Positions 24,131 to 64,000 of a stretch of DNA of 64,000 nt are shown here, in pieces (positions within the stretch are counted from its first letter, which is position 1; each line of letters starts with the position of its first letter). Source of the stretch: Flavobacterium pisciphilum (lineage in GTDB: Bacteria > Bacteroidota > Bacteroidia > Flavobacteriales > Flavobacteriaceae); NCBI RefSeq assembly GCF_020905345.1, contig NZ_JAJJMO010000001.1, forward strand, positions 1,612,001 through 1,676,000, written 5' to 3'. A model generated the notes under the pieces. The model made no database searches. It was not told the origin of the DNA and saw nothing but the letters and a program-made list of their open reading frames with translations. The translations under genes and the position numbers were made by a program.

Positions 24131-24300
24131 CCACCAAAGAAAAAAATATTCTGGCAACTGCACTCCGAATACTTTTTGACAAAAAAGAAAGTGATTACGA
24201 AACCTGCTTTACAATCTCCGATTTGGCCTTCAAATTACAAATAAGCAACGCCAATGAGATAAAAAATGATTTACTATTTGTAACCCAAAATCCTTTTTGA
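24118..24300 (+). CDS. small early phage protein
   Basis: 60 residues. TTKEKNILATALRILFDKKESDYETCFTISDLAFKLQ: a winged-helix-like pattern of two helices. It overlaps genes on both sides slightly, as in a packed operon. No family recognised. Confidence 0.5.
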   Translation: MDALTTKEKNILATALRILFDKKESDYETCFTISDLAFKLQISNANEIKNDLLFVTQNPF

Positions 24301-24302
24301 TC

Positions 24303-24800
24303 ATGAATATAGATGCACAGATACGAACCGTTTTTGATACAAGCAAAAAAATGGCACTAAACAAACCTGATTATCTATTTATAACATTTTCAAAAAAGGA
24401 TAAAAAAACAAACAGTACCATTTTTAAGGTTTATAACAATGATAAAGTTCCGTTTTTCAGTCTTATCACTACAAATAAAAAATTATTAGCACATTCCTTA
24501 AAAGAATTTCTATCCACCGAAAAGATTCCGTTTCGATTTGAAACCACAACCGACCCAAAAATTCTAAACATAGAAACCGAGATAAGGAGGCTATTCTTTA
24601 AAGACTGGCTAATTAAAACAAAGAATATATACCAACATCATCCCATATGCATGCAAATGGCACTAAAAAAAAATCAAATAACAATGAAACATTTAGAGCA
24701 AGAAAAACCAAACAAAGCCTTTCATTTTTACATCATTAGCATACTGATTGCATTTTGGATTGGTCTAGCAGCAGGAGCTGGAATAGCATATTTAATGTAA
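24303..24800 (+). CDS. early phage protein with a C-terminal membrane helix
   Basis: About 166 residues from the ATG at 24303 (a TTG codon at 24297 is a less likely start). The soluble part (residues 1-135) is alpha/beta with SKKDKKTNSTIFKVYNND; the tail is a single membrane helix (FYIISILIAFWIGLAAGAGIAYL). A tail-anchored early protein could alter the host envelope or exclude superinfection; this is only a suggestion. Confidence 0.55.
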   Translation: MNIDAQIRTVFDTSKKMALNKPDYLFITFSKKDKKTNSTIFKVYNNDKVPFFSLITTNKKLLAHSLKEFLSTEKIPFRFETTTDPKILNIETEIRRLFFKDWLIKTKNIYQHHPICMQMALKKNQITMKHLEQEKPNKAFHFYIISILIAFWIGLAAGAGIAYLM

Positions 24801-47499: not shown

Positions 47500-49474
47500 T
47501 TGTGTTTTGTGTTATAATGAAATATTTTTTTAAAGTCAGACTAATACTCTCGATATAATTTTCCCTATCAAGATAACCCCAAATGTCCATTTGTGTAATG
47601 TTCTTTGTGTAATATTTCAAGAAAACATTTTTTGTACATATTGGTATAAAATGTTTTTCATTATCACTTTCCTGCCAATGCACTTTGTCTGTTTTTATTA
47701 TATATTTTCGTTTTTCAATAAATCTTTTCTTCCCTAGGCCGCTATTTGTATTGCCATCCAAGAGTGCCATATTACTTAATTTGTGAACACCCATAATGTC
47801 TTCGATTGATTCTATTATTTCATTTAAATAATCTCGTTGAACGTTATTTATTTCATCTTCATTCTTAAGATCATTCCAGCTTACTTTTAGTTTTTCAATT
47901 AATGGAATAGTTTCTACTTTAAAATTTTCAAAGTGTATTGACAATCCATTCAGTTCCTCAATTTCAATTTTAGATTGATTTTCTTTTTTTCTGAGGTATT
48001 CAATATGTTTTTTTATTTCAGTATTCCATGACCTCAATTCATTTTCAAATATTTTCAATTCTGCAATGTTTTCAAAATCATCAGCATTTTGAGCATGTAT
48101 GTGCTCTAAAGTCCATTTTTCATTTTTAAATTTGTTGAAAGGAAAACGAAATTGCGCTTCACTTTTTTGATACGTTTCGATGTTAAACAATAACAATATC
48201 TTAAGAGTATCGCCATAAGAATTATAACTCAGGTTTTTTAAATCGTTAAAATGTACATTTGATTCTTTAAGGTCTTCTTTGATCATTGTTATCAGTTTTT
48301 CTAAAAAAATGTCTTTTGTTACATTTTCACTAACCTTAATAATATGTTTTAATGATTTTATTTTTCGATCGACGATAAACCCTATCAGATGGTATTTTTC
48401 TTGATCATTAAACCATTCTCTTAATTTTAAAAACAGATTTTTAATTTCGCTCCAAATTAATTGATGCTTGCCCTCTGAGTATTGATGGTAGGCATACAGC
48501 TTATCATTCTTTGAGTTGGTTCCTACAATAAGCTCAAACAAAAAATCAATCCGAGTTTCATATTTAGTTTTGTCTTTTTCATTATTGATAAAAAACCAAA
48601 ATACGTCATCTTGCAATGTTTGCTCTATAGTGTCCCATTCTGATGCAAGCGAGGTTTGTTGGAGTTGTTGAATCTCTATGTTTTCATGTTTTAAATTATT
48701 TATAAACAGTGCTTTAATAAGCTCGGCATTGGTAAGTTCAATTTTGCCACTATTTAAATTTCGAAATACGGATTTTGAGTTTTCATGTCTTTTATCTTCA
48801 TACCATATAAAATGGGTGTGATTCAGTAGGTTTTTCAAAAAAACATCAACTTCACCAATAGAATAAAACCAAGCTTTTATTACCAGATAAGCACCAAAAA
48901 AATGATAAACATCTATGTTTTTAAATTTATTCTGGTTTTCGATAAAATTTCCCCACTGAAATTTAATTGATGCATCATTTTTTTTTGCATCATTGCTAAA
49001 TTCAATAGAATATTGTTCTAATTCATTTGTAATTATATTTAAAAAGCGGGCGCTTTCATCTCTTGTTTGGTATTTAATATTATAAATTGAAGAACTGATA
49101 GTTTTTAATATAATATGAATAGTAGTTAGACGTTGTTGTCCATCTATTACTTCAAAACTTTTCTCGTAATTTGAATTAAAATGTTCTTTAATTTTATCTT
49201 CAGAAAGTAGTTTTACTGCCAAAGGCTGCAGACAATAAAACACTTCATTTTTAGGATTGAAATATTTGATATCATTTAATAAATCAAGTACTTGTTGTGA
49301 AGTCCATTTGTAACCCCGTTGGTATTCATCAATGAAAAAATTATACCCTTCCAGATCTTTAATAGGTCGGGTATATAAATTATTGATTTGATCAATTCCC
49401 TTTGCGGGATTCGACTTTTCCGGATTTATTATTTTTGGATTTGTATTTTTTACTACTTCTTGAATATTATCCAT
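47489..49474 (-). CDS. DUF262-DUF1524 protein, GmrSD-like nuclease
   Basis: 661 residues. DUF262: FFIDEYQRGYKW (about residues 46-57), DGQQRLTTIHIIL (about 110-122), FRNLNSGKIELTNAEL. DUF1524-type HNH: WTLEHIHAQN (about 455) and LSNMALLDGNTNSGLGKKRF (about 575), in which H-x-H and the Asn are catalytic. Single-chain GmrSD enzymes are a bit larger, but the domain set is the same. It is co-transcribed with the DUF262-only partner. Confidence 0.85.
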   Translation of the reverse strand: MDNIQEVVKNTNPKIINPEKSNPAKGIDQINNLYTRPIKDLEGYNFFIDEYQRGYKWTSQQVLDLLNDIKYFNPKNEVFYCLQPLAVKLLSEDKIKEHFNSNYEKSFEVIDGQQRLTTIHIILKTISSSIYNIKYQTRDESARFLNIITNELEQYSIEFSNDAKKNDASIKFQWGNFIENQNKFKNIDVYHFFGAYLVIKAWFYSIGEVDVFLKNLLNHTHFIWYEDKRHENSKSVFRNLNSGKIELTNAELIKALFINNLKHENIEIQQLQQTSLASEWDTIEQTLQDDVFWFFINNEKDKTKYETRIDFLFELIVGTNSKNDKLYAYHQYSEGKHQLIWSEIKNLFLKLREWFNDQEKYHLIGFIVDRKIKSLKHIIKVSENVTKDIFLEKLITMIKEDLKESNVHFNDLKNLSYNSYGDTLKILLLFNIETYQKSEAQFRFPFNKFKNEKWTLEHIHAQNADDFENIAELKIFENELRSWNTEIKKHIEYLRKKENQSKIEIEELNGLSIHFENFKVETIPLIEKLKVSWNDLKNEDEINNVQRDYLNEIIESIEDIMGVHKLSNMALLDGNTNSGLGKKRFIEKRKYIIKTDKVHWQESDNEKHFIPICTKNVFLKYYTKNITQMDIWGYLDRENYIESISLTLKKYFIITQNTNEQ

Positions 49475-50217: not shown

Positions 50218-50937
50218 TCAATTGCCTAACCATTTAGAATACTCGAGAACATCAATCATTGGAACAGTACCACTAAATTGAAGTTGCGAAATTAATTTAA
50301 ATAGAAATGCTGTGGCTGGCTTGCCTCCCTGTATAAATTTATATTCTTTACTTTCTGCTTCATAATTAAAATATCCATGAGATGCTATACACCCCATATC
50401 TATAATACCTTCTTCTTTTTTTAGTAACGCCATTAAAGATTCTCCCATACCTGGTGTCCAATCACTTTCGAATGTAAGTATGCCGCCTATTATCTTAATT
50501 GGTGCTTTAGCAGGAAAAGTGCCGCCCGCATGAGGTATTGGAAGACTTGTTCGATACAACTTTCTCACACTTTCAATTTTTTCATGTGCATAATTAACAT
50601 ACGTTGCATTTATAGACTGTTTAGCCTCAAATACTGCATATACACTTTCTGCTGGGATGATATATTCATCTTTGAAGTTAAAAATGAAAGGTGAATATTG
50701 TCTATCAAATATTACAATATCAATCTGTTGACTAAAATTTCCCTTACTGTCAACCACATGTGCTTTTTCTGCGCGGTAGCGTTCCGGCAAATATTTTTGA
50801 AGTAATTCTAGCCATATTGTTTCACTAACATCTCCTTTGCTTCCAGGATGATTAAAAGATTTGCGGGCAATCTCTAATTGTTGATGAATATCATCATGTA
50901 AGCTCTGAAGCAACGTTTCTAAGGACCAATTTGCCAT
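50218..50937 (-). CDS. nucC: NucC, cyclic-trinucleotide-activated DNase (CBASS effector)
   Basis: 239 residues, the usual NucC length. The restriction-endonuclease core is Asp73 (QQIDIVIFD) with Glu104 and Lys106 (AVFEAKQ), the same numbers as in E. coli NucC. Conserved blocks: SFNHPGSKGDVSE, PIPHAGGTFPAK, GGILTFESDW and GTVPMID. It forms trimers that bind cyclic tri-AMP and pair to hexamers to degrade DNA, killing the infected cell. It is the last gene of the type III CBASS operon. Confidence 0.92.
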   Translation of the reverse strand: MANWSLETLLQSLHDDIHQQLEIARKSFNHPGSKGDVSETIWLELLQKYLPERYRAEKAHVVDSKGNFSQQIDIVIFDRQYSPFIFNFKDEYIIPAESVYAVFEAKQSINATYVNYAHEKIESVRKLYRTSLPIPHAGGTFPAKAPIKIIGGILTFESDWTPGMGESLMALLKKEEGIIDMGCIASHGYFNYEAESKEYKFIQGGKPATAFLFKLISQLQFSGTVPMIDVLEYSKWLGN

Positions 50938-50939
50938 AA

Positions 50940-51875
50940 TTATATTTCTTTAAAGGGTGAGGTTGGTATAATAGTTTTTGTAATATCAATTGATCGCTTA
51001 GCTGTAACGGCATGATTTGGATAGGCATCTAATACAATTGCTGGTAGAAGACGCTGTACAATGTCAGAAAAAGTGTAACCAAACGTTCTCCCTTCTTGAG
51101 GACCAGTCAAATCAACGATCTGTTGTACCTCTTCATTTGTGAATCCTAGCTCTTTTAATGGAGTATTCAAAACTTTAGTACGGGAATCTTCATTTGGCCT
51201 TTGAAAATAAATAATTTCGGCAGCTCTTCTTCTAATGGCTGGATCAAGTGAATTAGGTCGGTTTGTACACATGATTACAGCTGCGGGAAATTTTCCATTT
51301 CCTAAACTGTCGATTCCTCGAATAAAAGCATTTACGCCTGCTTTATCTTCATGATGCATTTGGTCATTTTCTCTTGACTGAGCAAGCGCATCTGCTTCAT
51401 CAACCAATAAAATTACAGCTCCTTTTGATTTACCAGTTTCATTCTTCAATTTTTTGGCTCTTTCAAGAGTGTATTCAAAAGCTGATGAGACAAGCTGTGT
51501 CATTTGACCTACGCGACCTTGACCTCTACTAGATAAGCTCAAAGGAAATAATTCGACATCCAACTTTTCTTGTCTTGCTACAGCATCACCAATTGTGTAA
51601 GCCAATTCTGATTTACCGGATCCAACATCTCCAGCAAGTATTATAAGAGGAGGACGTCGATTAACGAAATTTAAAATTTGATTTGCTCCCGAGTGGTGCA
51701 CACCTATCCATTCTTTTACTCCATTAGGATTAATAAGAAGACTTAATATTTTTTTTATCTTTTCTTTCGTTTCATCAAGGCCTATCAATAATTCAAAACG
51801 CATCTGCATTTCGTGATCAGGATAAGAAATAGTTGATTCAAATAATTCAGAAAAAGATGGTTTTATATTTTCCAT
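50940..51875 (-). CDS. cap6: Trip13-like AAA+ ATPase of type III CBASS (Cap6)
   Basis: 311 residues. Walker A GDVGSGKS (residues 82-89), Walker B ILLVDEADAL (159-160 acidic), and sensor 1 MCTNRPN, arginine finger AIRRR. Pch2/TRIP13-type remodeler that removes HORMA from the CD-NTase to switch off signalling. The stop is 2 bp before nucC and the start overlaps the HORMA stop by one base. Confidence 0.9.
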   Translation of the reverse strand: MENIKPSFSELFESTISYPDHEMQMRFELLIGLDETKEKIKKILSLLINPNGVKEWIGVHHSGANQILNFVNRRPPLIILAGDVGSGKSELAYTIGDAVARQEKLDVELFPLSLSSRGQGRVGQMTQLVSSAFEYTLERAKKLKNETGKSKGAVILLVDEADALAQSRENDQMHHEDKAGVNAFIRGIDSLGNGKFPAAVIMCTNRPNSLDPAIRRRAAEIIYFQRPNEDSRTKVLNTPLKELGFTNEEVQQIVDLTGPQEGRTFGYTFSDIVQRLLPAIVLDAYPNHAVTAKRSIDITKTIIPTSPFKEI

Positions 51876-52387
51876 TAGTAATTTTTTAATGTTGAACGAT
51901 CAAGGGATTTTCCACCTGAAGAATATGTTTTGTCAGAACTCATGTAACCACTAATACCGGGTGTTGGAGCTCCACCTCGCAGAAAAGGAAGCGTTTTATC
52001 AAATGATTCTCTATCTGCATTTGCTAAATTGGAGTATTTAGAGTTGGTTATAAGATAAGAATAAAATGACGCTCCACTGATATCCGCATTTGGGCGTATT
52101 TGCCCAGGATCATCATCGCCTGACATTCCTGCCAAATCTTTTGCGGTATACTTAATGGTAGGTTCAATCCAGTTATCGCTACGTTTGAAACCATAACTGA
52201 TTTCAGATAGGTAACCATTTTTTAAAAATTCTATCAATTCTGTTTCATAAGAACTTATTTCTAGGTCAGATGGCGAACCATAAAAACGTTGTATTCTCTT
52301 TAAATCTGTCGCCACTTTAGAAGCTAAATATTTAGCATGAGTGACAGTAAAAGTCTGTGTTTCGGAATTAGTATAACTAGTGCTCAT
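51875..52387 (-). CDS. cap7: bacterial HORMA-domain sensor of type III CBASS (Cap7)
   Basis: About 170 residues from ATG 52387. An upstream ATG at 52504 lies inside the CdnC gene and is unlikely. Front (TFTVTHAKYLASKVATDLKRIQRFYG) and WIEPTIKYTAKDL match the HORMA1 group of CBASS. The C-terminal ~50 residues (GISGYMSSDKTYSSGG) form the safety belt or closure-peptide part. Binding of a phage protein peptide would let HORMA activate CdnC. It starts 4 bp after the CdnC stop. Confidence 0.85.
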   Translation of the reverse strand: MSTSYTNSETQTFTVTHAKYLASKVATDLKRIQRFYGSPSDLEISSYETELIEFLKNGYLSEISYGFKRSDNWIEPTIKYTAKDLAGMSGDDDPGQIRPNADISGASFYSYLITNSKYSNLANADRESFDKTLPFLRGGAPTPGISGYMSSDKTYSSGGKSLDRSTLKNY

Positions 52388-52391
52388 AAAT

Positions 52392-53357
52392 TTATATTTG
52401 AAATGAATGGCCAAAAACTTTTTGCCAATAATAAACTGTTTTCTCTTTAGTTGTTGCGGACAATGCTGCATCAATAGCATCTCCTGCATCAATTGCGGCT
52501 TCAACTATTAAATCTGCTTGCTCATTAGTATAAAGTCTTGCTGCATTATTTGCTGAATTCACAGGATCTATAATTTTAACAGGACTTGTATATTGTGGTA
52601 TAGAAGATGATGAATAATAGTCGTTAAATACAATAAGATCGCGAAGATTGCTAGTAGCCAGATAAGTAAAAAAGTTTTGCAAAGCTTCTGGATAATCAGA
52701 AAAAGATTTCCCTTGATCAAGAAGTTTTGACATTACTAACTCAACCATAAAAGATTTGAATCGGAAGTTTGAATTCTCAAGTTTCATATTCTTAACCCAA
52801 TATTTAGCTAACCTTATAACTTGTGCAAAATGTTGATCCTGCTTTTGCTTTCTCGTTCTAATGAATTCTAAATGTCTTGGAATACAGGTTTCTAACAAAG
52901 AACCATCTTCTTGGCTAACTAAGCAACCGTACCAATCAGGATCTCCATAGTAAAGGATAGGTACTATGTCAACATCTAATCCAGTACCTTTGAATGAAAT
53001 AGTAACACAATAAGTTTTAGGTTGAACCTGGCTAGGATCTAAATTAGGAAAAGCCTTTCTTAATTTTTCTGCTAAATACGAAATTAGTTCAGCTATATCT
53101 TTAGGGGCTTCGGAACCACTAATATAACAGGCCATATCAATATCATTTAGATTCTTTAAAGCGGTTCCTTTTGCTAAACTTCCCGATAAAAGAATTTTTT
53201 TTAAGGAAAAATTTGGATGATCATTTAAATAACCTACAACTTTTTCTCTTACTCTTTGAGCTTGAGCTCTGTAATCATCAGCAATTTCCTTAGGTAAATT
53301 TACCTTATCTTTAGCAAATTGTAAGATGTCACCATGTGTTACGTGTTCTCTCGACAT
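52392..53357 (-). CDS. cdnC: CD-NTase CdnC, cyclic tri-AMP synthase
   Basis: 321 residues, the usual CdnC length. Catalytic motif GS(59-60)...D72-I-D74 (LSGSLAKGT, NDIDMACYI) and the third Asp in GLDVDIVPIL (about 130). The C-terminal part (NNAARLYTNEQADLI, TVYYWQKVFGHSFQ) matches E. coli CdnC closely in layout. Makes cyclic tri-AMP once bound by activated HORMA. First gene of the operon. Confidence 0.92.
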   Translation of the reverse strand: MSREHVTHGDILQFAKDKVNLPKEIADDYRAQAQRVREKVVGYLNDHPNFSLKKILLSGSLAKGTALKNLNDIDMACYISGSEAPKDIAELISYLAEKLRKAFPNLDPSQVQPKTYCVTISFKGTGLDVDIVPILYYGDPDWYGCLVSQEDGSLLETCIPRHLEFIRTRKQKQDQHFAQVIRLAKYWVKNMKLENSNFRFKSFMVELVMSKLLDQGKSFSDYPEALQNFFTYLATSNLRDLIVFNDYYSSSSIPQYTSPVKIIDPVNSANNAARLYTNEQADLIVEAAIDAGDAIDAALSATTKEKTVYYWQKVFGHSFQI

Positions 53358-53455: not shown

Positions 53456-54484
53456 ATGGCTATCACTAAAACTCCATTGACTCGATATAAAATTCTAGAT
53501 ATTTGTTTTAGGAACAGATTTAAAAATTTTGATATAGATAGTCTTCTTATTAAAGTAAATAATGATTTAATTGAGTTATATGGAGATAGCAGTCACTGTA
53601 TACAAAAAAGACAACTTCAGCAGGACATTGCATTTATGAAAAGTGAAAAAGGTTGGAATATTGAGTTGCAAGAAGAATACGATGGCAAAAAGAAAATTTA
53701 TCGATATAGTGACTTAAACTTTTCGATTAATAATGCACCTTTAAATGATGTTGAGATAAGCGAATTTCAATCAGCCTTAAAAACATTGTCTCAATTTGAA
53801 GGAATGCCTCAATTTAATGGCATTCAAGAAATTTTAGTGAAATTAAGATCTGATTTAAAATTTGCTGGTTCTGAAGAACCCTTTGTAAGCTTTGAGAATA
53901 ATCAGGATTTAAAAGGTTTGCAATTCTTTAGAGAATTATATGATGCTTTACAAAATAAAACAACACTTGAAGTTACTTATAAAGATTTTAAAAGCCCAGA
54001 ACCATATACCTTTATTTTTCATCCACATTATCTTAAACAATATAATAGCCGTTGGTTTATCTTTGGATTGCATCAGCAAACCGGAAGACAAAATTGTAAT
54101 TTAGCAATTGACAGGATAATCTCAATCAATGCAAGTAATGTTCTATTTACAAAAAGTATTATAAATTGGTCTGATTATTTTTCTGATATGATAGGAGTTT
54201 CTAAAAGTGATGGCGCTCATGAAGAAGAAATAGTTTTACAATTTGATGAATTAACGGGAAAATATATGGAGAACAAACCAATTCATGAAACTCAAAAACA
54301 TAAATGGGCAGGGGATAAATTGGAGTTAAAAATTAAATTAATTATAAATTATGAACTTGAACGCTTGATATTGTCTTATGGTGACTGTGTAAAAGTTATA
54401 GCTCCAGATCATCTCAAGGAAAAGATCAAAGAACGCTTAAAAAATGCTCTAGATTTAAATCTAGAAATTACAGATTTTAATTAA
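53456..54484 (+). CDS. WYL-domain transcriptional regulator, CapW-like
   Basis: 342 residues. N-terminal winged helix (LTRYKILDICFRN, IQKRQLQQDIAFM), a central WYL domain with FHPHYLKQYNSRWFIFGL (about residues 180-200), and a C-terminal WCX part (ILSYGDCVKVIAPDHLKEKI). It diverges from the CBASS operon, as does CapW, a repressor that is relieved by DNA damage or a nucleic acid ligand. Same general type as many Bacteroidetes defence regulators, so the CapW equivalence rests on position. Confidence 0.8.
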   Translation: MAITKTPLTRYKILDICFRNRFKNFDIDSLLIKVNNDLIELYGDSSHCIQKRQLQQDIAFMKSEKGWNIELQEEYDGKKKIYRYSDLNFSINNAPLNDVEISEFQSALKTLSQFEGMPQFNGIQEILVKLRSDLKFAGSEEPFVSFENNQDLKGLQFFRELYDALQNKTTLEVTYKDFKSPEPYTFIFHPHYLKQYNSRWFIFGLHQQTGRQNCNLAIDRIISINASNVLFTKSIINWSDYFSDMIGVSKSDGAHEEEIVLQFDELTGKYMENKPIHETQKHKWAGDKLELKIKLIINYELERLILSYGDCVKVIAPDHLKEKIKERLKNALDLNLEITDFN

Positions 54485-54519: not shown

Positions 54520-55224
54520 TTATTTTTTAATCAATGCAATAAATATTACAGTAACAACAAGCAAGGCTATGATAATGAAATTTAGTTTTTTATTCAGAGC
54601 GGCTTCTTTTCTTAGTGATTCTGTTGCTGTAATAATTGATGATAATTTGGTTTCAGATTCATTTATTTTATCTAATAATTCATTTTTATTTTTTTCTTGG
54701 GTTTCAGTTAGTGAATCGATTTTTAGACAAATTTCTTTTTGATTTTTAGCAAGTGTTTGTTCAATTTCGCCAAAGTTTTTAATAATGTTATTAAAGTTTT
54801 GTGATATGGATGTCAAAATGCTATTAATTCCATTTACAGAAATAAAAACTTCTGATAGTTTGCTTTGATGCTTATTAAAGTGATCTTCTAGATCAATTTT
54901 TGATAAACGCGTAATTTCAGCTTTAAAATCGTCATTTACCTTTTGAAACTGTGAAATATTACTTTCTATTTGATTTATATTTTTAACCAATAAGTCATTG
55001 TTTCCATCAACGAATAATTTTACTGAACTTCCAAGGTTATTATTATATTCCGTTGCATGTTCAATTATTATTTGAAACTTTTTTCGAAACTCTTCGGGTA
55101 ATTTCTCATTACTATCTTTTAACTCCTGAATTCTTTCTTTTAAATTTTCTATTTGTTGTAACTCTGATTTTAATTTGTCTAATTGCTCGTAATTATCAGA
55201 TAAAATTTGGTCTATATTATTCAT
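54520..55224 (-). CDS. coiled-coil protein with C-terminal membrane anchor
   Basis: 234 residues. Almost all coiled coil (SELQQIENLKERIQELKDS, LDKINESETKLSSII), ending in one membrane helix (KLNFIIIALLVVTVIFIALI) and a KK tail. It starts one base after the helicase gene's stop, so it belongs to that gene functionally. Architecture resembles the protein at 41566. It might anchor or sense for the nuclease-helicase; no family recognised. Confidence 0.65.
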   Translation of the reverse strand: MNNIDQILSDNYEQLDKLKSELQQIENLKERIQELKDSNEKLPEEFRKKFQIIIEHATEYNNNLGSSVKLFVDGNNDLLVKNINQIESNISQFQKVNDDFKAEITRLSKIDLEDHFNKHQSKLSEVFISVNGINSILTSISQNFNNIIKNFGEIEQTLAKNQKEICLKIDSLTETQEKNKNELLDKINESETKLSSIITATESLRKEAALNKKLNFIIIALLVVTVIFIALIKK

Positions 55225-55225
55225 A

Positions 55226-58200
55226 TTATAAATCGTTTAAGCTATTGTTAATTTTTTGTGCAAATTTGGTTGTAATTCTAAGCATTAACCTGTGTTTTGC
55301 TCTTTTTATAAATTCTTTTGAATTTTCAAACTTCACTTCTTGGGATAAAATTTGCTCAAAATGATATAACTTCTTTTCAAAATCTATATAATTGTTGCTT
55401 TTGTCATATAAATTTTCAAACCCTTCCATAAAATATTTTTCTGCTTCTTCAAAATAATATGAATTATTTAATCCGAAACTTGCATACGCATAAAGTAGTT
55501 TTAAAACATATTCATCATTAGTTTCTTCATTTGCAATTGAACGCCAAATCCTTTTGCAAGAACCTCGCATCATTTTACATTCATTTATGAATGATGCCTT
55601 ATTGTTTAATATGTTGGTATATTTTTCAAAGAGTTTCCATTTTTTAAATTCATTATTTTTAAAATCATCGATTAACGAACGCGGCTCATCATCTTCAATA
55701 AATTCACTCTTAGCATATTTTGCATTAAAGTAATAGTACATAAGCTGTTTGAAATGACTATTATATTTTGAATTTATGAATCTCAGATTTGTTTCCTTAT
55801 TCTGATCAATACTTTCGGTGATGAATTCTTTTATGTCGTCAATTGCTCTTTTTCTTTTCTTAACAATATCTGAATAGGTGAATTCTAGAATAATTTTTAT
55901 CGATTTTTTAATTGTATTGAACGTGTTCAGATCACTGCAGATCTTTTCTAATTCTTCGATCTTTAATTGTGTTTTTTCTTTGGATAGGTATTTTAATAAA
56001 TGATTTTTTGTAGCATTAATATAAAAGTTTTTATCGTTTTTATTTATGCTGATAGTAACCAATCCTTTGTTATAATCTATAGTATAATCTGAGATAAATT
56101 TAATGCTATATAAGCGGTAAATAATTCGTAGTATATCCTGCCTGTTAATATTTGAATAATATAATTCCTTATATTGTTTTTTATTATTGGCATAGGTACC
56201 AGAATTTAAAATTTCAATATTCCAAGTTTCTTCAATTCTTTGAATATAATCTGTAAAATCAGTCGATTGTTTTTCTAAGGCTTCTAAATAGATTTGGACA
56301 TTGTGAATACTTTGGGTAGTTATTAGATCGAAATCTAAAATTATTTTATTAGATAAACTGTCTTTAGTTAAGTCTAATGGTACAATAAATTTTAAGTTAC
56401 TACTTTTTGACTCAAAGAAATCTTTTAATGATAGACCATAATTAATTATGTTTTCAACTGGTTTACTTACATATTCGTAAAGGGTTGTATTTGGGCTGTT
56501 TCGTTTCCATTTTTTACATATAAAATCAAAAACATCATTTGTAAGAGTTACATCCATGACGCCACCAGTGTTTCCGAAATTAAAATCCACCGACAAATTA
56601 CCAACTCCATTTGCTCTTATAATTTTACCAAAAACAATATTATCCGCATTTCTTAGCCAAATATTTCCTTGATAAGGACCATCCGGGGTTAAATAAAATT
56701 GTATTTTGATATCATTCTCAAGATTAAAAATGTCTGTAATTTGTTTAAATACTGTTTTGTTAATTACTTCTTTTCTAGTAAAAAAACGTTCTAATTGATA
56801 TAATTCAGTTTCTATTCCTTTAAAACTATTTTTGTGAAAGAAATCATGTATGCTTTCATCTAAACTATACGATAGAATTGTGTTTTCTTCTCGTATTTCA
56901 TTAGGGGCTATTTTAAAAGTTTCAGTGAGATTCGGAACAATTAACATTAAGTCATTTAGTAGTGATTCTTTATTTGATTGTCGTAATCGGGAGAAGTTTT
57001 CTCCGTCAAACATTTCATTTATGTACCTCAATTTTATTCTGGCTTCTTTCGGAAAATGTTTAATATAGTTAGGATTTAAGAAATAAAATTCTTCAGTATT
57101 AATTAAATTCACACACAAAGATTTTTTCTTATCTCTGCCTGCTCTACCTGCTTCCTGAATATAACTTTCAGGCGAAGAAGAATAGTTGACATGATAAACA
57201 ACTCTTACATCTTCCTTGTCGATTCCCATTCCAAATGCTTTAGTGCAAACCATATAACTGGTTTTGCCATCTAAAAAATCATTAAAGTGATTATTTATTT
57301 CTTCACTCAAACGTCCTGCATCATCATTACCAATAAAGTAAGATTTGTTGGCATCATTTATTTTTAAATTTTCAAATATTTCTTTTGGGTTTTGGCCATT
57401 GTGTACTCTTCCGGTAACTCCTAATATTCCTTTAGTGCTAGGACAAAATATTATTGACGTTGTACGCTCAGATTTTAAGGTTTCTGGAATCGCATTGATA
57501 GCTTCTATTTCATTTTCAATTGCAGATTTCAATTCACTTTTTCCAATTTTATCTACCTCAAACTCATGGTAATGTTGATTTAAGGAATTTGAAATAACTT
57601 CATAATCAATGGTTTTTAATTTTTGAATACTATTTTGAACATACCCGTTTAATTTATCTCTTTTAATTAAACCGATTTTATTTTTTATGTCTCGATCTGT
57701 AATAGTATAATCTGAAATTTTTGCATTACATTCAATAAAATCGAAAAACAATTCTTTTCTAATTGTATTATCAATCAAAATTACTGCGTTTGCGGCATCA
57801 TCATGGTTAATATTCAACTCTCTTTCAATATCAGCTAAAACGTCATATGAAGCTGTTGCTGTTAGTCCTACCAAGGTGACTTTGCCTTTTCTGGTTTTAA
57901 TGAATTTTTGAGCATTTTTGCCCAACATTAAATAGGTAGAACGGAAGTCATGTCCCCATTCAGATAAACAGTGAACTTCATCAATAATGCAGAAGGAGAA
58001 GGCTAATTTGTATTTTGTATTGTCAATAGTATTTATTATACCTCTAAAATCTTCCATTACAAATCTTTCTGGAGATACAAACAGAAATTGAGTTTGCCCA
58101 AACTTAAGATCAATTAACTTACTTTGTTTTTCCTCTCTTTTTAAATTGGAATTTATGTAATCGCAGCAGTCAATCCAATTATTGTTTAAAACCCTAACTT

Positions 58201-59773
58201 GATCTTCCATTAAGGATTTAATTGGATCGACGATTAAGCACAAGCCAGGTTGTAAAAATACTGGCAACTGGTATGTTAATGATTTTCCGCCACCTGTTGG
58301 TAATAATCCTATAACTGGTTTTTGTTGTAGTGATCTTGAAATAATTGGTAATTGACCTGGTCTAAAATTTGATTTCCTGAAAATATTTTTGATAAAGAAA
58401 TTAATATGTTTTTCATACTCTACAACATTAATAAAAGAGCCGTCTCCTTTTTTATTTACTAATTCTTTATAATGCAGTAAATTAGCGCAGTATACTTTTT
58501 TATTACTTTCAATACTATTATCAAAATAATGTGATGAACGAATATCTATAACCTCACGAATAGTATATTTTTTCTCTCTATAGATTTTAGAACGCTTGAG
58601 TATGGAATGATCAATTATTATATCGAAATCATTTGATCCGAAATAAATTTCATTTTGAGGTTTGACATTGCAATGTAACTTTTGATTAATTACCCATTTT
58701 TCATTTTCAAAGATGGATAATTCTATTTTTGGTAACTGCAACTTTTCTGTTTCTTCTAATAAGGCGTTTAGATTTATAAAAATTTCTTCTAAGCTTTTTA
58801 AAGCCAAAGCACCACAAGGTAAATCTCTTTCAATGATTGCTATTTGGATAGATTCTTTCTTAAATAAATCTGGATTTGCAATTAAGTGCTCTAGGAGTGT
58901 TTTTTGAATTCTTGCAACAGCAAAAGGTATGAAGATTAAACTGTATGCTTCTAAAAATTCATGAGGTTTTCTAAGGAAGTTTTTTTCAAAAATTTTATAT
59001 AAATCTTCAGAGAACAATTTCTCATAGGGAATTGAATTTTCATTTATATCCTTTTGTTCAAACCTAAATGTTTCCGCATCAGCTTCTTTTGATGCTAGAT
59101 CTCGATTTGTATCATAATGTAAATATTCATCCAATAAATGATGAGGACCATCTATTTCAAAAATTCTAGTTTTATATTCCGATCTATTTTTATTATCATT
59201 CCAGTATAGATACGGAGATGTAAAGCTGAAATCAACTGTTTTTCCACCAATCATTTCGGGGTTTATGCTGGCAAAATCTCTTTGTGTTTGGAAAAGCTGC
59301 TTAATAAACTGATGATTTCCTAAAAATTTATGCTCTAATTTGCTACCTAATTCCCCAACATAATTTTCATCATTAATCTTTAAACTGGGTTCTATGACGT
59401 GAAACAATTCAAAGACAGTCTTAAAACTTAATTCTTTAAGCGATACAGGGTATTCTAATGCATATTCATTGCTATTTTTCTTTACCAAGCCAATTTCCAC
59501 AAATTTTTCTTCTACAATAATTGGAGCTTTTGTTGGTAAACCTCTTGTAATAATATTATTTATAGTGGCTAAAACCGGATGTATATTGTTGTGATCAATT
59601 TTATGTTTATATGGAAATTCAACATCAAATGAACTGAGATTTTTAAGCAGTCCTTTTACTTTGTTGATTTCTTCATTTCCATTTTCATTAAAGTAATTAA
59701 GTGGCTTGAAATTCTCAGTAATTAAATTACTTACAGCATCTACTATATATCCTGCTTTGAATTGTTTTATCAT
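55226..59773 (-). CDS. PD-(D/E)XK nuclease fused to a RecQ-like helicase
   Basis: 1515 residues. A nuclease-like region at residues ~195-235 (FEIDGPHHL...YDTNRDLASKEAD..FRFEQKD) is of DUF559/Vsr type. SF2 helicase of RecQ kind: Walker A LLPTGGGKS (about 492), DEVH (IIDEVHCLSEWGHDFR, about 596), TAT (GLTATAS), motif V/VI (KAFGMGIDKEDVRVVYH, QEAGRAGRD about 878). A long C-terminal part (about 600 residues) has no known domain. It starts 14 bp after hsdR's stop, so it is an add-on to the type I restriction operon. Acting on DNA is clear; the system is not one that I recognise. Confidence 0.75.
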   Translation of the reverse strand: MIKQFKAGYIVDAVSNLITENFKPLNYFNENGNEEINKVKGLLKNLSSFDVEFPYKHKIDHNNIHPVLATINNIITRGLPTKAPIIVEEKFVEIGLVKKNSNEYALEYPVSLKELSFKTVFELFHVIEPSLKINDENYVGELGSKLEHKFLGNHQFIKQLFQTQRDFASINPEMIGGKTVDFSFTSPYLYWNDNKNRSEYKTRIFEIDGPHHLLDEYLHYDTNRDLASKEADAETFRFEQKDINENSIPYEKLFSEDLYKIFEKNFLRKPHEFLEAYSLIFIPFAVARIQKTLLEHLIANPDLFKKESIQIAIIERDLPCGALALKSLEEIFINLNALLEETEKLQLPKIELSIFENEKWVINQKLHCNVKPQNEIYFGSNDFDIIIDHSILKRSKIYREKKYTIREVIDIRSSHYFDNSIESNKKVYCANLLHYKELVNKKGDGSFINVVEYEKHINFFIKNIFRKSNFRPGQLPIISRSLQQKPVIGLLPTGGGKSLTYQLPVFLQPGLCLIVDPIKSLMEDQVRVLNNNWIDCCDYINSNLKREEKQSKLIDLKFGQTQFLFVSPERFVMEDFRGIINTIDNTKYKLAFSFCIIDEVHCLSEWGHDFRSTYLMLGKNAQKFIKTRKGKVTLVGLTATASYDVLADIERELNINHDDAANAVILIDNTIRKELFFDFIECNAKISDYTITDRDIKNKIGLIKRDKLNGYVQNSIQKLKTIDYEVISNSLNQHYHEFEVDKIGKSELKSAIENEIEAINAIPETLKSERTTSIIFCPSTKGILGVTGRVHNGQNPKEIFENLKINDANKSYFIGNDDAGRLSEEINNHFNDFLDGKTSYMVCTKAFGMGIDKEDVRVVYHVNYSSSPESYIQEAGRAGRDKKKSLCVNLINTEEFYFLNPNYIKHFPKEARIKLRYINEMFDGENFSRLRQSNKESLLNDLMLIVPNLTETFKIAPNEIREENTILSYSLDESIHDFFHKNSFKGIETELYQLERFFTRKEVINKTVFKQITDIFNLENDIKIQFYLTPDGPYQGNIWLRNADNIVFGKIIRANGVGNLSVDFNFGNTGGVMDVTLTNDVFDFICKKWKRNSPNTTLYEYVSKPVENIINYGLSLKDFFESKSSNLKFIVPLDLTKDSLSNKIILDFDLITTQSIHNVQIYLEALEKQSTDFTDYIQRIEETWNIEILNSGTYANNKKQYKELYYSNINRQDILRIIYRLYSIKFISDYTIDYNKGLVTISINKNDKNFYINATKNHLLKYLSKEKTQLKIEELEKICSDLNTFNTIKKSIKIILEFTYSDIVKKRKRAIDDIKEFITESIDQNKETNLRFINSKYNSHFKQLMYYYFNAKYAKSEFIEDDEPRSLIDDFKNNEFKKWKLFEKYTNILNNKASFINECKMMRGSCKRIWRSIANEETNDEYVLKLLYAYASFGLNNSYYFEEAEKYFMEGFENLYDKSNNYIDFEKKLYHFEQILSQEVKFENSKEFIKRAKHRLMLRITTKFAQKINNSLNDL

Positions 59774-59787
59774 ACTTAATTCAAGAT

Positions 59788-62700
59788 TTAAGCTATAGAA
59801 GCATTTTCGTTTATCTTTTCAATAATACTAATCACTCTATGTGCATCACTATCTTCGAAAATACCTAATAAACCGTTGTCATTAATGTCAGTGAAAGGTG
59901 ACTCGAAAAGCATACTTGGTTCAATCGTGCCGTTTTTCGTTAAATGCGTGATTATATTTTGAATAAAAATCATTTGGTCGGCTCTAAGGTTTCCGGCTTG
60001 CAGAAACTCTGAAAATGCATCCTGTGCTGCTTTAACTTCGAGTCCAATAATACTGCGGATAAATTTACCTAAAGGTTCAGTTCCGTATTCTTTAGTAAAG
60101 TCTAAATAAGTGCCTCTCTCAGTTCCATCAAACAAAATTTCTTGTAATAAAGCAAGTTCTTGTGAGGTGATAGGTTGGTTAGAAGACAACTTTGAAATGG
60201 TAATGTTGTGTTTATTTTCTCTAATAAAACTTTCTACTCTTCTTCTGTAGGCATTACCATAGGTTGATGCCATTTGTGGTTCATTAACAACAGTAATTAT
60301 ATCTTCATCTTGCAAGTCTAAATAGAATATCTCTTTGTTTGCTTTATCTAAATAGTGAATCAACTCGCGAAGTTCTTCTCGTACTTCATTTAATTTTTTT
60401 TGTGAAATTGCTTTGAAAAAGTCGGCTCTCTTGATGTCTTCAATTAATCCTTTTGCTCTTAAAACTGCTGGAATAGTATACTTTTGACTTAATCCCTCAC
60501 ATATTTCAACCAGTGCTTCTTGGTATTTTACTTTGTAGTTGTTGGTCATTAAAGTTGCTATTTGAAGCTTTAGCATCATCAAATCAAATCTTCGTGCTGA
60601 TTCATTTATGGTTTCAGGTGCAGGTAAATCAGACAGGAACTCTTCAATAATATGTACATCACTAGAGTCAAGATTTGACCAACGACTTCTTTCAGCAAAT
60701 TCAGCAACATGTCTGGATTGCATATTTACCTGAAACCTGTCTTTGTCTAAGTGACTAATAGCATAATGTAAAATATCTCGTAAGTTGTTGGCTAATTCTA
60801 TATCATCAGGCTCACCAGTTTCAATTAATAATCTGCTTAAATGCAAACGGTCTTCAAATATTTGTTGCGTTATTGGTTTGGCTATTTTATTTTCTTGTCC
60901 TTTTTTCTCAATATCAAAAAACTCAAAGTTTTTACAAACATCAAAAATTAAGAAATGATCTTTAGGCATATTTGGTCCATAAACATCCGGACACAAACGA
61001 GTACCTCTACCAATCATTTGCCAAAATTTAGCATAAGAACGTACTACTTTAAAAAAGACTAAATTCAGTACTCTAGGAGCATCAATACCAGTGTCCATCA
61101 TATCTACCGATACAACTATTTGTGGATTATTTTCGATGTAATGGTCACAAAATAGGTCAATTAGACTTTGTGAATGTGACACTTCATTGTGAATCATAGA
61201 AATAAAACCGGAAGGCTGTTCTGGATAACGTTCTAAAAAGCAATCAACAATAAATTTTGCATGTGTTTGATTTACGGCAAAAATTAAAGTTCTACCTAGT
61301 TTATCGCCACCTTCAATTTTCAAACCTTGTTCCATTAGAGTGTCTAAAACTTTGAAAACAGTGTCTTTGTTAAATAGCCTTTTGTTCATTTCATTGGCTC
61401 TTATTTCCTCGGGAAAAATACCTGTGGTTTTGTCTGCAAAAGTCTCTTCGTATTTGGTTTTATCGGTATCAGAAAGTTCACTGTACTTAATTCCCTCTCT
61501 AATGAACTTGGTAGAAATATCAATGTTTTTATACGCACTTAGATAAGTAGGTACTGCTTCGTGAAGCTCATACAAGAAAGTAGGATCTTCATTACTACAA
61601 CCAAAAAGTTCAAATGTATTGTGGTCAATACCATCTTTTGGGGTTGCTGTCAACCCAATTATTGAGGCATCAAAATAATCAAAAATAGCTTTGTATCTAT
61701 TGTAAATAGAACGATGTGCTTCATCTACTATGATTAAATCAAAATGTCCAACACCATAGAAACGTTCTTCTGCGTTTCGGATATTGTCAATTTTATTCAT
61801 CATAGTAGGGTAGGTACTAAACACTAATCGTGTAGTGTCGTTCTCTTTTTCCTCAGTTAAATCTATAGAAGTTAGATCGGGTAAATGTTCGCCAAAACTT
61901 TTCTTTGCTTGTCTCACTAAAGCATTTCTATCTGCTAAGAATAATACACGTTTTACCCAATTGTTTTTAAACAGTACATCAACCATTGCAGCAATAGTTC
62001 TAGTTTTTCCACTGCCAGTAGCCATAACTAATAAGGCTCTTCTTTTATTCCCACAAATTCCATTTTTGTTTTCTGTAACAAAGTCTTCGGCAACATTTTG
62101 AATGGCTAGAAATTGATACGGTCTGTTTACAATATTTGTATTAATAATAGCCTTACGAATGTCTTTGATGGTGTTTCTTTTCTGAATCAACCATTGCAAT
62201 TCTTCTTTAGTGTAAAAGCCATAAATACGTCTGGGCGAACTATAAAAAGTATCTTCCCAAATTTTAGTTTCGTAACCATTGGTGTAAAAAATGATAGGTC
62301 TTTGCCCATGTATTTTTTCAATACAATTGGCGTATAAGAATGCTTGGTGTTTTCCCACTTCAATATCTTTGGTAGTACGTTTAGCTTCTATTATAGCCAA
62401 AGGCTTTCCGTTATCATCCCACAATACATAATCTATAAAACCATTTCCCTTTGGATTATCGACGCTGATTGGCATACCCGAAACGGGATATTCTAAATCT
62501 CTTCCAATGCTTAAATCAAACCAACCGGCTTCTTTTAGTAAAACATCAATTAGATGTTGTCTGGTTTCGGATTCGTTGTATTCTGAAGTAAGGGGTTGTA
62601 AACGGGTTTGTTTTTGTTTTTTTAGTTTTACAACTGCTTGAGCAGTTTGCTCTTTAAAGTCAATTAATGAGGCTTCACTTTCTTCTGCTTTCGCTAGAAT

Positions 62701-63225
62701 TTCTTCTTTTTCCTTTTCTAGTGTGGCAATTTGCTCTTGAAGTAATAAAAAGGCTTTCTCTTGTTCTTTCTGTACTTCTTTTAACTGTCTTTGTTTTTCG
62801 CCTAATTTAGGAACGAAACCGGCATCAAAATGTTGTGGTAACTCAGGAATGTGTTTGCTGTAGTTTAAAGCAAACCACTTGACGAAATCATAAGTATAAC
62901 GAATACTAATATTGGCTTCTTTACTTGAAATACGTTGTCCAAAATGAACGGCATTGTTTCCCGTTTTTCGAACAATATGTAATCCCTCAGTTAGATGAAA
63001 TGGAATAATGTTTTTAATTTCTTCGGAAGTCATTAAGTTAACCAGTTCCGTATTAAAAGGTTTTTCGATATGTTCTATATTATACATAAGGTACATACAT
63101 TCCTCTAATGCTAAACGGCAATAAGTGGCAGTAGAAACAGGTTCTGTACTTACCCGTTCTTCTGCTGTTTTTAACTTTTGATAAAGTGATAACCACTCTT
63201 CTTGAAGAAATTTAAAGTTGCTCAT
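59788..63225 (-). CDS. hsdR: type I restriction endonuclease subunit R
   Basis: About 1145 residues from ATG 63225; a TTG start at 63237 would overlap the previous stop. An N-terminal DUF4145-like helical domain (residues 1-140), a coiled coil, then the nuclease core (FIDYVLWDDNGKPLAIIEAKR, about 265-290), SF2 motor with Walker A MATGSGKT (about 408), DEAH (IIVDEAHRS about 503), TATPK and DAPRVLNLVFF/GRGTRLC, and a C-terminal helical part that binds the MTase. Cuts foreign DNA after translocation. Upstream are hsdS and an unusual small gene. Confidence 0.92.
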   Translation of the reverse strand: MSNFKFLQEEWLSLYQKLKTAEERVSTEPVSTATYCRLALEECMYLMYNIEHIEKPFNTELVNLMTSEEIKNIIPFHLTEGLHIVRKTGNNAVHFGQRISSKEANISIRYTYDFVKWFALNYSKHIPELPQHFDAGFVPKLGEKQRQLKEVQKEQEKAFLLLQEQIATLEKEKEEILAKAEESEASLIDFKEQTAQAVVKLKKQKQTRLQPLTSEYNESETRQHLIDVLLKEAGWFDLSIGRDLEYPVSGMPISVDNPKGNGFIDYVLWDDNGKPLAIIEAKRTTKDIEVGKHQAFLYANCIEKIHGQRPIIFYTNGYETKIWEDTFYSSPRRIYGFYTKEELQWLIQKRNTIKDIRKAIINTNIVNRPYQFLAIQNVAEDFVTENKNGICGNKRRALLVMATGSGKTRTIAAMVDVLFKNNWVKRVLFLADRNALVRQAKKSFGEHLPDLTSIDLTEEKENDTTRLVFSTYPTMMNKIDNIRNAEERFYGVGHFDLIIVDEAHRSIYNRYKAIFDYFDASIIGLTATPKDGIDHNTFELFGCSNEDPTFLYELHEAVPTYLSAYKNIDISTKFIREGIKYSELSDTDKTKYEETFADKTTGIFPEEIRANEMNKRLFNKDTVFKVLDTLMEQGLKIEGGDKLGRTLIFAVNQTHAKFIVDCFLERYPEQPSGFISMIHNEVSHSQSLIDLFCDHYIENNPQIVVSVDMMDTGIDAPRVLNLVFFKVVRSYAKFWQMIGRGTRLCPDVYGPNMPKDHFLIFDVCKNFEFFDIEKKGQENKIAKPITQQIFEDRLHLSRLLIETGEPDDIELANNLRDILHYAISHLDKDRFQVNMQSRHVAEFAERSRWSNLDSSDVHIIEEFLSDLPAPETINESARRFDLMMLKLQIATLMTNNYKVKYQEALVEICEGLSQKYTIPAVLRAKGLIEDIKRADFFKAISQKKLNEVREELRELIHYLDKANKEIFYLDLQDEDIITVVNEPQMASTYGNAYRRRVESFIRENKHNITISKLSSNQPITSQELALLQEILFDGTERGTYLDFTKEYGTEPLGKFIRSIIGLEVKAAQDAFSEFLQAGNLRADQMIFIQNIITHLTKNGTIEPSMLFESPFTDINDNGLLGIFEDSDAHRVISIIEKINENASIA

Positions 63226-63226
63226 A

Positions 63227-63760
63227 CTAAAATTCAATTATATATTGTGATTCAATAGATTTTACAAGTTTTCTTTTCTCTAAATTATCTAATGACCCAT
63301 TTGTATTTATTTTATAATGATTTTCGTAAATTAAGTTAAATGACTGATTGAAAAAAGGCTGGTTTTCATAAAGATGCCTACTTGAAACATCTTGTTCCGC
63401 TTGTTGTAAATTATAGGTATATTCCGCAATTTCTGTAATGTAATTCGTAGAAATATTATCTACAATTATATTATTGTGCAAAGGCCAAGTCCAATCTGTG
63501 TCAGTTAAAATATCGGGTTCATAGGTATAAATAGGTAATGCATTTACAGGAATTTTAATTGTAACTAAAATAAAAATGTCACCATCTTTTATCTCATGTA
63601 GCTGAGAGTTTATGACTACATTAATAATTCCTTGGTCATTAGTCCTTAAAACACAGATTCCTTTTTGAGAACGTTTTATACCATGAGTTTCTATACTAGC
63701 TCTATTTTTAACGGGACTTATATGGTAAAAAACACCCGTATTTTCTAAATAATTTCTCAT
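63227..63760 (-). CDS. small ART-like protein between hsdS and hsdR
   Basis: 177 residues. Starts VFYHISPVKNRASIETHGI, the opening pattern YHxSPxxNxxSIxxxGI of ADP-ribosyltransferase-like proteins (DarT, KptA, PARP). Strand-like IFILVTIKIP follows. The rest (LPIYTYEPDILTDTDW) has no motif. It overlaps the stop of hsdS as ATGA and ends just before the hsdR start, so it is translationally linked to both. Not a standard type I gene. Might be an auxiliary toxin, anti-restriction counter or regulator. Confidence 0.55.
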   Translation of the reverse strand: MRNYLENTGVFYHISPVKNRASIETHGIKRSQKGICVLRTNDQGIINVVINSQLHEIKDGDIFILVTIKIPVNALPIYTYEPDILTDTDWTWPLHNNIIVDNISTNYITEIAEYTYNLQQAEQDVSSRHLYENQPFFNQSFNLIYENHYKINTNGSLDNLEKRKLVKSIESQYIIEF

Positions 63761-64000
63761 GCCAACTCTCCTTTAAATGCCTTTTGCAATAGACTATTAA
63801 ACAACTCCTCTGATTTTTCTAAACTCTTTTGCGCAATAGCTTTTTGTTCTTCTATTAAAGTAACTCGCTCTTCAAATTGGTTTTGTAATTCAATTGGTGG
63901 AATAACTAATTTAAAAGAATTGATTTTAGTTAATGTATACCTTTGAATAGCTGCGCCAGACATAAATTCAGATAAAAGTTTGCTTTTGATTTTTGGATTA
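63757..64000 (-). CDS. hsdS: type I restriction specificity subunit S, C-terminal part
   Basis: The frame enters from the window's right edge and ends at 63757. The end of the second target-recognition domain (SGAAIQRYTLTKINSFKLVIPP) and the final long helix (QNQFEERVTLIEEQKAIAQKSLEKSEELFNSLLQKAFKGEL) are clear HsdS features. An ATG at 63963 lies inside the gene; the real start is outside. Confidence 0.85.
   Translation of the reverse strand, partial: NPKIKSKLLSEFMSGAAIQRYTLTKINSFKLVIPPIELQNQFEERVTLIEEQKAIAQKSLEKSEELFNSLLQKAFKGELA

Follow-up and report, generated by a model that had tools for sequence, protein, structure and literature searches.

A nuclease/RecQ-like helicase gene and its coiled-coil membrane partner in Flavobacterium pisciphilum: a conserved pair that is probably an undescribed immune system

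Gene order and predicted domains at the locus

The 64,000-nucleotide stretch of Flavobacterium pisciphilum DNA analyzed here (the window) carries a gene for a 1515-aa nuclease/RecQ-like helicase (55226..59773, minus strand) followed by a gene for a 234-aa protein predicted to be a tail-anchored coiled coil (54520..55224, minus strand). The helicase ATG (59773) is separated by 14 bases from the stop of hsdR (59788) and a gap of 1 base lies between the helicase stop and the partner ATG, as an earlier annotation made from the letters alone (the sequence-only reading) had placed them. The upstream neighbors include hsdR of a type I restriction-modification (R-M) operon (59788..63237, minus strand; PADLOC REase_I 535 bits), which is not an obligate part of the pair, a neighboring 177-aa gene between hsdS and hsdR without a Pfam match at E ≤ 0.01 (63227..63760, minus strand), and the 3' part of hsdS running past the window edge (63757..64000, minus strand; named from sequence and position). 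Fetching the sequence past the window revealed Druantia type III directly upstream of the hsd genes (L014 2628-11561, minus strand; DruE 2512 bits and DruH 142 bits in PADLOC), giving the one-strand order DruH, DruE, hsdM, hsdS, the 177-aa gene, hsdR, nuclease/RecQ, and coiled coil. A promoter and terminator scan of the locus gave no signal exceeding shuffled sequence and therefore, co-transcription of the pair is argued from the spacing. The 5.46 Mb host genome contains three further RecQ-like loci besides the window helicase. Directly beyond the pair is a type III CBASS set (cyclase, HORMA, TRIP13, and NucC by PADLOC; 50218-53357, minus strand) accompanied by a divergent WYL regulator (53456-54484, plus strand), and two adjoining GmrSD_N (DUF262-type) genes occupy 44935-49474 (minus strand).

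The large protein has a RecQ-like SF2 helicase core (57074..58393, minus strand; residues about 461-900) containing Walker A TGGGKS (493-498), DEVH (598-601), and QEAGRAGR (873-880) motifs, with Pfam matches to DEAD (472-646, 1.6e-17) and Helicase_C (760-881, 5.4e-14). The description of a full RecQ-type helicase in the sequence-only reading stood for this core but was too strong a label for the whole, as the broad RecQ family model was barely reached (NCBIfam recQ_fam TIGR00614, 222.9 bits versus a cut-off of 219.8), the equivalog model was missed (NCBIfam TIGR01389, 241.5 of 640.2 bits), and none of the RQC, RecQ zinc, or HRDC domains appeared in the Pfam search at E ≤ 0.5, which divergent copies could escape. 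Upstream of the core, a PD-(D/E)XK/EDxHD-like nuclease domain is predicted (58997..59344, minus strand; residues about 144-259). Of the 25 sequences aligned, 24 retain E206, D208, and H212 and 23 retain D181, while the domain positions conserved in at least 90% of the 25 rows were D181, E206, D208, G209, H212, D221, R224, and R237. The window protein itself had no Pfam DUF559 match, and DUF559 scored above the Pfam cut-off in the relatives L021 and L024, whose motif aligns with the window protein, and in L105. The DUF559/Vsr-like motif named earlier is consequently judged real and is assigned to a putative DUF559/EDxHD nuclease. As modeled, the domain tentatively resembles the nuclease domain of I-Bth0305I in fold, with residues 1-449 lacking a Foldseek match at E ≤ 0.001. 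Between nuclease and helicase lies a Rossmann/methyltransferase-like domain (58484..58972, minus strand; residues about 268-430) that was also matched in nuclease-less loci; its middling structural similarity to METTL17/PRMT5 may merely reflect a common fold. The C-terminal part (55229..57073, minus strand; residues 901-1515) comprises a weakly modeled stretch and then a mostly helical end that looks, by eye, winged-helix-like and helical-repeat (AlphaFold2 pTM 0.47; pLDDT about 70-90 across most of the last ~300 residues), and had no PDB structure match at E ≤ 0.001 in Foldseek.

The partner contains a single hydrophobic segment at residues 214-232 (54529..54585, minus strand; mean 3.15), two residues before the C-terminus, and a strong heptad pattern (score 0.83), in agreement with the tail-anchored coiled-coil protein claimed earlier; both features are predicted from simple sequence scores as opposed to dedicated predictors. 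Across loci, partner length varied from 114 to 500 aa and a heptad score of at least 0.65, a threshold picked after the partners had been seen, was reached by 32/32 partners scored versus 23/349 other ORFs of 100-510 aa from the same loci (omitting the near-duplicate L022, whose partner otherwise scored 0.74). An earlier strict tail-anchor test was passed by 23/299 ORFs of which 18 were partner genes, with the remaining partners of the same loci failing or falling outside the ORF set. Conservation within the partner family is higher at the N-terminus, represented in the window by the first 55 residues (55060..55224, minus strand), which are the proposed docking site on the helicase. Pairwise scores over 300 pairs had a mean of 44.4 and a median of 35 for the N-termini (the mean being inflated by a few close relatives) compared to 29.2 and 27 for internal pieces and 24.5 and 24 for shuffled sequence. 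Another ORF of the window, 167 aa in a different context (24297-24800, plus strand), also passed the tail-anchor test.

Conservation, distribution, and modularity of the pair

Comparison of homologous loci revealed that the two genes are kept together, the helicase gene being followed immediately by a coiled-coil gene in 33/33 evaluable loci (window included) and a membrane helix being encoded in the partners of 31. The first set comprised 25 loci including the window, one of which (L066) was not evaluable as its contig ends. A partner was present in the other 24/24 with a distance of -17 to +102 bases between the helicase stop and its nearest start; the membrane helix was 0-4 residues from the end in 22/24, the partners of L071 and L072 having none. 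In the second set of 12 added loci, partner plus membrane helix were found in 9/9 evaluable cases, and seven partners of the f70 clade continued for about 30-60 residues beyond the helix. The evaluable loci belong to the phylum of the host, to Rhodothermota, or to enterobacterial plasmids, and clustering 35 of the 37 sequences (two partial ones excluded) at 60% identity gave 30 groups. This two-gene module is real and widely conserved.

The module is rare and patchy. Relatives occurred in 4/296 genomes (own included), 1/395 genomes of the order, and 19/294 genomes of another class. A phylum search with a loose threshold matched 38/395 genomes, of which 18 were kept (own included) and 20 dropped as their matches (E 4.7e-10 to 7.6e-9) were mainly over the DUF559 core, some of these lying in long frames of up to 1484 aa. 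Among plasmids, 15 records matched, 12 of them beyond the helicase region, and six were opened. Searching with an E. coli copy identified relatives in 7/5426 E. coli genomes, with four of the seven places being plasmid and three chromosomal. A plasmid search with a Rhodothermus protein gave 48 records and besides the known relatives, those listed match the helicase region only. The same held for every one of the 17 phage records at E ≤ 1e-20, and two single-protein scans of viral contigs, a method that catches close relatives only, gave no relatives.

The nuclease motif is fused to the helicase in 25 of 37 loci, encoded separately in L105, and absent from ten of the 36 evaluable loci, namely L067 and nine of the f70 clade (L095-L103); L104 begins mid-gene. 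The nuclease gene of L105 lies ahead of helicase and partner and includes a topoisomerase-type zinc ribbon, such that the activities can be separate subunits. In L067 (6763-8000, plus strand), located between Azaca and BREX genes, the N-terminus of the nuclease-less protein is weakly methyltransferase-like. The nuclease is thus replaceable, missing from 10/36 loci while the coiled-coil partner stays. In the f70 clade, GK[ST] was kept in 10/10 loci, but histidine replaces the final motif VI arginine in seven and the motif was not found in L099 and L104, while L103 stops before it; these motors may therefore be impaired. Within this clade (L095-L104), the coiled-coil membrane partner was observed in 7/7 judgeable loci (L096-L102) and an uncharacterized gene of 190-219 aa upstream in L095, L098, L099, L100, and L101. 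The Klebsiella, Raoultella, and E. coli cousins additionally have HAD and PRTase-like domains fused N-terminally to the helicase (the alignment covered L021 and L022, the domain scan L021) and carry DprA upstream (L021, L022, and L074), a gene seen only in the enterobacterial loci among those annotated. L021 displays a PRTase-like motif with Pfam PRTase matches below cut-off (E about 0.05).

Comparison with known systems and proposed function

The sequence-only reading had recognized no named defense system, and PADLOC 2.0 concurred in matching the large protein over its helicase part only and the partner by weak coiled-coil matches only. Nor was the pair found described among the matches listed in the literature searched, although subscription papers and preprints lay mostly outside this search and a description may exist there. 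The portions of text available for PMC4670107, PMC9122126, PMC12278908, PMC12458937, PMC12839542, PMC10853773, PMC5512222, and PMC13316683 do not describe it, and the term "RecQ" is absent from the main text of PMC12458937, PMC12839542, PMC10853773, and PMC12278908. Neither outcome that would have counted against the sequence-only reading occurred, since the two genes stay together across loci and no described system was matched. The pair is probably an undescribed immune system.

The best PADLOC match to the large protein was DpdF (helicase part, 236.6 bits). DpdF is a helicase only, no Dpd operon was noticed beside the pair, and identity was rejected on the NCBIfam DpdF score of 112.3 of 550 bits. 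Hachiman (HamAB) similarly combines an SF2 helicase and a nuclease acting on DNA, but as portrayed in the available part of its description, HamA is a separate DUF1837 protein and HamB is Ski2-like (PMC12278908). Neither protein of the pair had a PADLOC match to HamA or HamB at E ≤ 0.5. Hachiman is not known to have a membrane coiled-coil partner. Zorya and Kiwa couple a membrane component to a DNA-acting partner. In contrast to these, neither a MotA/B-like nor a KwaA/B-like protein is encoded by the pair, and the match of its partner to ZorA (PADLOC, E 0.0032) is weak coiled-coil similarity only. Druantia III, just upstream in the same genome, is a neighbor and not the pair itself.

The reading we favor, with a probability of about one half, is that the pair constitutes an undescribed, self-contained two-gene module against phages or plasmids in which a helicase-nuclease is tethered to the membrane. 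Constant pairing, close spacing, and the conserved partner N-terminus are suggestive of a membrane-held complex, while the helicase core, the nuclease, and the DprA of the cousins suggest a role in defense by processing of invading DNA, DprA being a protein that binds single-stranded DNA (PMC9122126, from the part available). The small protein would be a tail anchor in the inner membrane whose cytosolic coiled coil oligomerizes and whose conserved N-terminal ~50 residues would bind the large protein, with the helical C-terminal region of the latter as the probable docking surface. This larger protein would load onto foreign DNA at single strands or ends arising at injection, at replication forks, or from cuts by neighboring R-M, DISARM, Druantia, or BREX systems; the RecQ-like motor would unwind this DNA and the EDxHD-type nuclease would nick or degrade it. 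In enterobacteria, DprA with the PRTase-like and HAD domains could contribute a further layer of control or toxicity. The patchy distribution and the defense genes nearby speak for this reading. Weighing against it are the ten nuclease-less loci, the possibly impaired motors of the f70 clade, the two partners without a helix, the residues trailing the helix in seven f70 partners, and the chromosomal loci at which no defense gene was noticed. The sequences show the gene pair, its motifs and conservation, the predicted tail anchor, carriage on plasmids, and the defense neighbors, whereas the formation of the complex, its membrane site, substrate, order of events, and protection are what we infer from these genes, and the degradation of incoming DNA at the envelope, proposed from the outset, is plausible.

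A different function may be suggested by RqlHI/PsyrTA, which also have a RecQ-like helicase in an operon and whose PADLOC PsyrT model matched the helicase part of the window protein (159 bits); the enterobacterial cousins of the pair further share DprA and a PRTase-like domain. According to the portion of PMC4670107 available, the DprA-like rqlI is downstream of rqlH, whereas DprA is upstream in the enterobacterial cousins and was not recognized among the window neighbors; that portion also mentions neither an EDxHD nuclease nor a coiled-coil membrane partner, both of which are predicted for the pair. The window protein had no Pfam match to a PRTase domain and, together with the unrecognized DprA, this led to identity with RqlHI/PsyrTA being rejected. 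This likeness and the replaceable nuclease nevertheless keep alive a toxin-like reading, considered rather unlikely, in which the helicase acts as a sensor of phage DNA or damage and the cell is killed by the unleashed nuclease or by a membrane-acting coiled-coil protein, with DprA, where present, as antitoxin. RqlH has been portrayed as a RecQ-like helicase with a genotoxic PRTase domain restrained by RqlI (PMC4670107, in part) and DprA homologs as antitoxins in shosTA, syrTA, and rqlHI (PMC9122126, in part), and retention of the coiled-coil partner where the nuclease is lost would also fit abortive killing. Against it, DprA was seen only in the enterobacterial loci among those annotated, two partners lack a helix, and a coiled coil of great and variable length that ends in a lone tail anchor resembles, in our judgment, a tether more than a pore.

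Genomic neighbors and their bearing on function

In the sequence fetched around each locus, defense genes were recognized at twelve loci, of which ten belong to the 37 and the other two are L003 and L074. Type I R-M genes were present at seven of these, namely the window (which also has type III CBASS, with Druantia III just past its edge), L026, L001, L020, L021, L074 (from its annotation), and L064 (hsdM, alongside a weak ZacB). The other five have DrmA/DrmB (L003 and L019), a reverse transcriptase close to retron/DRT models (L059), ZacC and BrxC (L067), or a type IIG R-M (L071). Neighbors for PADLOC/Pfam scanning were selected by eye without a control and consequently, the defense context is strongly suggestive but carries no statistical weight. 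The E. coli plasmid copies sit amid phage-like genes, and at several chromosomal loci no defense gene was noticed in seemingly metabolic surroundings.

The locus in L026 (genome G168) has an order similar to that of the window, running from a DruE-like end (a partial frame that encodes an MrfA zinc-binding domain), which is followed by two extra genes, through hsdM-like, hsdS, and hsdR to the pair. The position directly behind hsdR in these two loci, and type I R-M at the five others, are consistent with an accessory that clears fragments cut by HsdR and similar enzymes and is not protective alone. That role is nevertheless doubtful, as the best PADLOC HsdR model was not the same between loci, DrmAB, BREX, IIG, or no noticed defense gene took the place of type I R-M elsewhere, and two E. 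coli plasmid copies had no R-M in the stretches shown. The homolog search proposed earlier thus found the pair both with and without type I R-M neighbors, and the claim that it is appended specifically to a type I restriction operon did not survive; an hsdR-specific appendage was rejected on these varying neighbors. Small genes adjoin hsdR in the window (63227-63760), L026 (6370-6867), L001 (9257-9961), L020 (5202-5921), and L074 (9292-10047). Those of the window and L026 had no Pfam match, that of L001 is similar-looking, and those of L020 and L074 are annotated as SprT or M48 metallopeptidase.

A chromosomal DNA-repair or segregation enzyme at the membrane that hitchhikes near defense genes would suit the RecQ kinship and the loci amid seemingly metabolic genes, but is very improbable for a gene pair that is rare and patchy even in relatives, plasmid-borne, and fast-diverging in a host already having three other RecQ-like loci.

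Returning to the membrane-tethered module, a broader reading that can be offered tentatively is an undescribed modular class of membrane-docked DNA-processing immunity, in which the motor and tail-anchored coiled coil would form a chassis for a swappable effector (nuclease fused, as a separate subunit, supplemented by HAD/PRTase, or lost) and, as a common stage behind varied primary defense systems, would finish or amplify their action at the envelope. Among the common helicase-nuclease immune systems, an invariant coiled-coil partner anchored in the membrane is unusual and raises the question of where invading DNA is attacked, which is testable in a model host since cousins exist in E. coli. 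The varied neighbors likewise offer a natural setting for asking whether one accessory module, shared among several primary defense systems, works together with them. In Rhodothermus, a second coiled-coil tail-anchor gene occurs with a weakly UvrD-like gene (L024 15521-19004 and L057 4501-8116), convergent to the first pair and with the UvrD-like frame intact in L057 (1031 aa).
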